NCBI GenBank assembly: GCA_024408905.1
Contig: JAKSUP010000004.1
Coordinates: forward strand, 1 to 18,181
DNA from: a bacterium
GTDB taxonomy: Bacteria; Cyanobacteriota; Vampirovibrionia; Gastranaerophilales; Gastranaerophilaceae
Direction: 5' to 3'
DNA length: 18,181 nt
The notes under the pieces were generated by a model. It was not told the origin of the DNA. It ran no database searches and saw only the letters and a list, made by a program, of their open reading frames with translations. Below are positions 11,859 through 13,265 of the stretch, piece after piece (the stretch's first letter is position 1; each line of letters starts with the position of its first letter). Made by a program: the position numbers and the translations under genes.

Positions 11859-13265
11859 ATGGAGACTTTGAATAAAAATGAGGGTTTGATTACCCAAATT
11901 ATTGGTCCGGTTATTGACGTTGAGTTTGCTTCAGGCGAATTGCCTGAAATTTATAACGCTTTAAAAATCGAATGTGATAACGGAACCGTAGTTGTAGCAG
12001 AAGTACAACAAATGCTTGGTTCAAACAGAGTAAGAACTGTTGCAATGTCATCAACTGACGGTTTAAAAAGAGGAATGAAAGTTATAAATACAGGCGAACC
12101 AATCAAAGTTCCTGTAGGTAAACCTATCTTAGGTAGAATTCTTAACGTAATCGGTGAACCTGTTGATAAAATGGGACCGATTGAAACAAATGATTACTTA
12201 CCAATCCACAGAGAATCACCAAAATTGGTTGATCAAAATACCGAAATCGAAATTTTGGAAACAGGTATTAAGGCTATCGACTTAATTCAACCATATCAAA
12301 AAGGTGGTAAAATCGGTTTGTTCGGTGGTGCAGGTGTTGGTAAAACCGTTCTTATTATGGAACTTATCCATAACATAGCATCAGAACACTCCGGTGTATA
12401 AGTATTCGGTGGTGTTGGTAAAAGAACTCGTGAAGGTAACGACCTTTGGAATGAAATGAAAGAATCAGGCGTTATCGATAAAGTTGCACTTATTTACGGT
12501 CAAATGAACGAACCACCGGGAGCAAGAATGAGAGTCGGTTTGTCAGCTTTGACTGCTGCAGAATATTTTAGAGATTTTTCTAAACAAGATGTTTTGTTAT
12601 TTATTGATAACATATTCAGATTTACACAAGCAGGTTCAGAGGTATCAGCTTTATTAGGCCGTATGCCATCTGCCGTTGGTTATCAACCTACGCTTGCAAC
12701 AGAAATGGGTGAACTTCAAGAACGTATTACGTCAACTAAAGATGGTTCTATTACATCAGTTCAAGCCATTTACGTTCCTGCAGACGACTTGACTGACCCG
12801 GCTCCTGCAACAACATTCTCTCACCTTGATGCATCAACAGTTCTTTCAAGACAAATTGCATCATTAGGTATTTATCCGGCAGTTGACCCTCTTGCATCAA
12901 ACTCAAGAGTATTAGACCCGAATATCATTGGTGAAGAACATTATGAAGTTACAAGAAAAGTTCTTGAAATCTTACAAAAATACAAAGAATTACAAGATAT
13001 TATCGCAATCTTGGGTATGGATGAATTGTCTGATGAAGATAAAGAAACCGTAAACAGAGCAAGAAAAATCCAAAGATTCTTATCTCAACCGTTCTTTGTA
13101 GCAGAACAATTCTCAGGTATTTCAGGTAAATACGTAAAACTTGAAGATACAATTCGCGGCTTCAAAGAAATTATTGAAGGAAAACACGACGATCTTCCTG
13201 AACAAGCTTTCTATATGGTTGGTACAATCGAAGAAGCTATAGAAAAAGCAAAAACTTTAAGCTAG
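11859..13265 (+). pseudogene. atpD: ATP synthase F1 beta subunit, interrupted by an in-frame TAA at codon 181
   Basis: Catalytic subunit of the F1 ATPase. Read through the stop it has 468 residues, the normal length, with the expected motifs: GGAGVGKT P-loop (156-163, Lys162), ALIYGQMNEPPGARMRV, FIDNIFRFTQAGSEVSALLGRMPSAVGYQPTL, the DELSDED loop and the AEQFSG..GKYV end. Codon 181 (12399-12401) is TAA where the family has Ser, one base from TCA. Three codons on, Gly184 replaces the usual Ala, and at 188 Lys (AAA) replaces the catalytic Glu of GVGERTREGND (Glu188 in bovine numbering, Glu181 in E. coli). Everything outside codons 181-188 looks intact. The upstream open part (180 residues) and the downstream part (from about 12456) would not work separately. 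It could be an assembly or consensus error, a fresh pseudogene with another copy elsewhere, or readthrough; I think an error is most likely. Confidence 0.88.

Follow-up and report, generated by a model that had tools for sequence, protein, structure and literature searches.

The atpD locus and its source genome

The window, by which we mean the whole 18,181-nucleotide stretch of DNA that was analysed, is one (C271) of the 336 contigs of a draft genome that totals 1,708,849 bases, with 78.24% completeness and 4.9% contamination. It carries atpD, the gene for the β subunit of F1, followed by its partner gene atpC (Table 1). When the atpD frame was read through with X at the internal stop, it matched TIGR01039 with 843.1 bits over residues 8–467, and full-length similarity to the family is thus above the curated cut-off (462.85). 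The gene resembles other F-type ATP synthase β genes (TIGR01039) in this full-length match, in its Walker A motif (GGAGVGKT) and in having atpC beside it, but it differs from them in two respects: the frame is interrupted by a TAA at codon 181, and the catalytic general-base Glu is replaced by Lys at codon 188.

Table 1. Coordinates of the features at the atpD locus (positions in the window)
Feature	Position	Strand	Basis
atpD (F1 β subunit)	11859-13265	+	Frame of 468 residues, Walker A GGAGVGKT in translation
atpD, first open part, 180 codons including Walker A, closed by the in-frame stop	11859..12401	+	TIGR01039 match at residues 8-180
atpD codon 181, TAA; Ser in relatives	12399..12401	+	Ser in 34/34 loci
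atpD, rest of frame, register unchanged, terminal TAG	12402..13265	+	TIGR01039 positions 177-462 of 462
atpD codon 184, GGT (Gly), normal residue of the genus	12408..12410	+	29/29 same-genus loci; 159/159 proteins listed
atpD codon 188, AAA (Lys), position of the catalytic general-base Glu	12420..12422	+	Glu in 34/34 loci
atpC (ε subunit), open, partner gene of atpD	13407..13799	+	Homologue in 20/20 relatives' regions

The C-terminal 269 residues of AtpD are 96% identical to L038 and 88% to L039, both of them Candidatus Gastranaerophilales MAGs, and the AtpD parts of L035–L037, records with vague or mismatched titles, are 97–99% identical to the window protein. The host is probably a gut member of the Gastranaerophilales. 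Among the matches listed, the closest proteins share 97% identity with the window AtpD (e.g. P0006, Cyanobacteria bacterium), while at the DNA level the closest same-genus atpD is 86% identical. L035 (CAMORE010000034.1), 99% identical over its AtpD part to the Gastranaerophilales-type protein of the window, is labelled as an uncultured Acinetobacter sp., a label that looks wrong.

Homologues of ksgA and of the glutamate-cysteine ligase gene were found in the same stretch as atpD-atpC in 12 of the 20 relatives' regions (ksgA, tpiA, mraY and atpC were named from their translations and the ligase by Pfam). As atpC follows atpD and these two genes lie nearby in relatives, the window locus is the usual atpD locus. 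A spacer of 141 bases (13266-13406) separates atpD from atpC and includes a short repeat that has a GTTGGGT..AACCCAAC hairpin; the spacer has 11 other short matches in the same genome, 10 of which lie over the hairpin repeat.

Two codons of atpD are private to the window

A preliminary description of this DNA, made from the sequence alone, had claimed three damaging changes within eight codons of atpD: a TAA at codon 181, Gly for Ala at codon 184 and Lys for the catalytic Glu at codon 188. We compared these codons with 34 other atpD loci, 29 from the same genus and 5 further ones (L009 and L035 are seemingly one contig, as both have 18286 bases). An atpD match was present in 56 of 57 genomes including the window's own, and 29 of the 55 others supplied loci that were read at the codons. 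The first and the last of the three changes were confirmed: all 34 loci have Ser at position 181 and Glu at position 188, as do 159/159 homologues among the matches listed, which are the best of ∼8000 scored in each protein search. TAA181 and Lys188 are thus private to the window sequence among all relatives compared, a set in which no sequence is known to be of the same species. The second change did not stand. Ser181, Gly184 and Glu188 are all present in each of the 29 same-genus loci read, Gly184 is found in all 159 homologues listed and it also occurs in the chloroplast β chain of a solved structure (6fkf_B). Gly184 is therefore the ordinary residue of the lineage, and the cluster is reduced from three damaging changes to two, each of a single base, which are spaced by 20 bases, inside the span of one short read.

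In alignments with solved F1 β chains, residue 188 falls on the Glu of GVGERT. The general base is Glu190 in thermophilic F1, Glu181 in E. coli and Glu188 in the bovine enzyme, according to PMC4019956. When the corresponding position of thermophilic F1 was subjected to saturation mutagenesis, partial activity was kept by Asp only (PMC13351929), which upholds the earlier claim that the enzyme would lack its general base even with readthrough. As written, atpD cannot yield a working β subunit. A correct sequence would imply a product of 180 out of 468 residues, and a β subunit made by read-through would be devoid of its general base. The catalytic position is shared with the known general-base mutants of F1-ATPase (thermophilic Glu190, E. 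coli Glu181, bovine Glu188; PMC4019956). However, those mutants were made in the laboratory and have an open frame, whereas the window atpD also has a stop seven codons earlier and its changes may not be real.

The remainder of atpD is conserved

The window atpD departs from 390 columns that are invariant in 29 relatives at exactly two, codons 181 and 188; the agreement at the other 388 upholds, for invariant columns, the earlier statement that the gene is undamaged elsewhere. Two random deviations among 390 columns would land within seven codons of each other ∼4% of the time, by a hand calculation done after seeing the data, so the closeness of the two exceeds chance. When the 29 relatives were examined one by one, 9 of them had private replacements at columns that were invariant otherwise, 14 in total, and none was a stop. 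Outside codons 181 and 188, the window atpD differs from L006 by 158 synonymous and 12 replacement codons, and from L007 by 153 synonymous and 15 replacement codons. Judged by these codon comparisons, the rest of atpD is under strong purifying selection and bears no sign of decay; the mostly synonymous differences indicate that the gene was strongly selected until, at the earliest, very recently. A template switch as the origin of the cluster was unsupported: no direct or inverted match within the window exceeded 21/36 for the 36-base stretch or 14/21 for the 21-base stretch.

Other F1Fo genes are open and no second atpD was found

The genes atpB, E, F', F, H, A and G lie on contig C112 of the same genome and are all open, as is atpC in the window (the C112 genes were named from gene order and sequence, atpA also by searches). 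AtpA contains no stops and departs from its relatives at 3 of 396 invariant columns. Marks of pseudogene decay, namely relaxed constraint or partner gene loss, were not found in atpD or in the F1Fo genes seen; a very recent inactivation would look alike. Between atpA and atpG, C112 also encodes, on the minus strand, an ORF6N-domain protein (PF10543) of 173 residues (L195, G000:C112, 9131-9652). Homologues of this protein occur in 24 of the 32 genus genomes searched, the window's own included, and in G031 and G007 they lie on the contig of atpA, within ∼0.5 kb downstream of it.

A second intact atpD, which had been proposed as support for a real pseudogene, was sought with PF00006 in the window's own genome (78% complete) and was not found. 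The search gave four matches: the window atpD as the one β subunit, AtpA on C112, and two ATPases of the FliI/type III type, one on C57 and one on C284, both named from their translations. Other genomes of the genus have a single atpD match in 28 of 33 cases, an extra short piece (27-230 bases) in four and none in one. This last genome, G004, is a draft that is 94% complete and has atpA; its missing atpD match is either a draft gap or a real absence.

Stops and deviations elsewhere

The rate of broken genes was sampled through four Pfam families and six conserved genes besides atpD. In the six genes, 16 of 1141 invariant columns deviate, mostly conservatively, and there are no stops; for the genes in the window the counts are 2/165 for ksgA, 6/209 for glutamate-cysteine ligase, 0/46 for atpC, 0/183 for tpiA and 5/142 for mraY. 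An in-frame stop was found in 1 of the 31 own-genome matches to the four Pfam families (some of these matches being two pieces of one gene), and that one is the window atpD, so such errors are uncommon in this genome. An AtpA query gave 128 matches in 32 genus genomes. Two of these contained a stop, the window atpD and a gene of the AtpA/FliI family, which has a single in-frame TAA and lies in a same-genus draft (G023:C8:1372-2337).

A search with the 180-residue fragment returned, among the best 120 of 7995 matches, two proteins that end exactly at position 180, P0125 (90% identity) and P0218 (61%), and a third, P0159, that departs from the family sequence at position 180 and then has a 25-residue tail. 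The ends of the short homologues listed are widely spread, and the list is biased by query length. A stop, a frameshift or a contig end may lie behind these three proteins.

Origin of the two changes

The preliminary description had left a choice between a sequence error and a very recent inactivation. Of the two, the evidence favours an error. Two private damaging changes lie close together in a gene that is otherwise constrained, no partner gene is lost, and a local error fits this pattern best; we therefore consider it probable that TAA181 and Lys188 arose from a local read or assembly error in a metagenome-assembled sequence. The contig would then carry a gut bacterium's ordinary atpD locus, of Gastranaerophilales type, in which a poor read or an assembler path through a rare variant altered one spot, and we infer that mapping of the raw reads would reveal the family residues at the two codons. 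The stop in a conserved gene of another draft of the genus (G023) counts in favour of such an error, as do the draft state of the source genome and the failure to find a nearby template for a clustered mutation. The main point against it is that the contig is otherwise clean. The small number of broken genes in the same genome also counts against it, and we counted likewise the ends of P0125 and P0218 at the same codon.

A real and very recent null allele of atpD, carried by the strain or by part of the population and abolishing F1 catalysis, seems unlikely. Under this explanation the cells would live by substrate-level phosphorylation and use other pumps for their membrane potential, and the second change would either be a passenger or belong to one clustered mutation with the first. 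The clean remainder of the contig is in line with such an allele, as is the description of Melainabacteria as fermenters that can energise the membrane in several other ways (PMC3787301). However, atpD is otherwise undecayed, atpA, B, E, F, F', G, H and C are open, and Ser and Glu stand in the atpD of every relative read. The allele would need a strain living without F1, conceivable in such a fermenter, that was sampled before further decay. The genome that has atpA but no atpD match (G004, 94% complete) counts in favour of such an allele, although its absence of atpD may be a draft gap. The broader proposal is that a non-photosynthetic gut relative of Cyanobacteria, in at least part of one natural population, has very recently lost the catalytic β subunit of the F-type ATP synthase with the other subunit genes intact, and would thus show how a fermenter begins to lose a nearly universal enzyme. 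It is in our view quite unlikely.

It is very improbable that the window atpD is a pseudogene whose intact counterpart is missing from the draft. The genome is just 78% complete, which leaves room for such a copy, but 28 of the 33 other same-genus genomes have one atpD match and the second matches elsewhere are short pieces (27-230 bases); moreover, the window gene occupies the usual locus, followed by atpC and with ksgA and the glutamate-cysteine ligase gene in the same stretch, as in 12 of 20 relatives' regions. Finally, decoding of the TAA as an amino acid, by recoding or programmed read-through, in an enzyme functional with Lys for its general base is very unlikely: beyond the stop the frame does run on in register over the whole length of the family, but 9 of the 16 window genes terminate with TAA, which gives no indication of recoding, and no replacement except Asp is tolerated at the equivalent residue (PMC13351929).

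If, as we consider probable, the two codons result from a local error, two wrong bases in a draft can mimic the loss of a core enzyme, and calls of this kind need a check against the reads. If the loss were true instead, it would be a natural loss of the F-type ATP synthase β subunit caught at its first step, in a fermentative gut bacterium.
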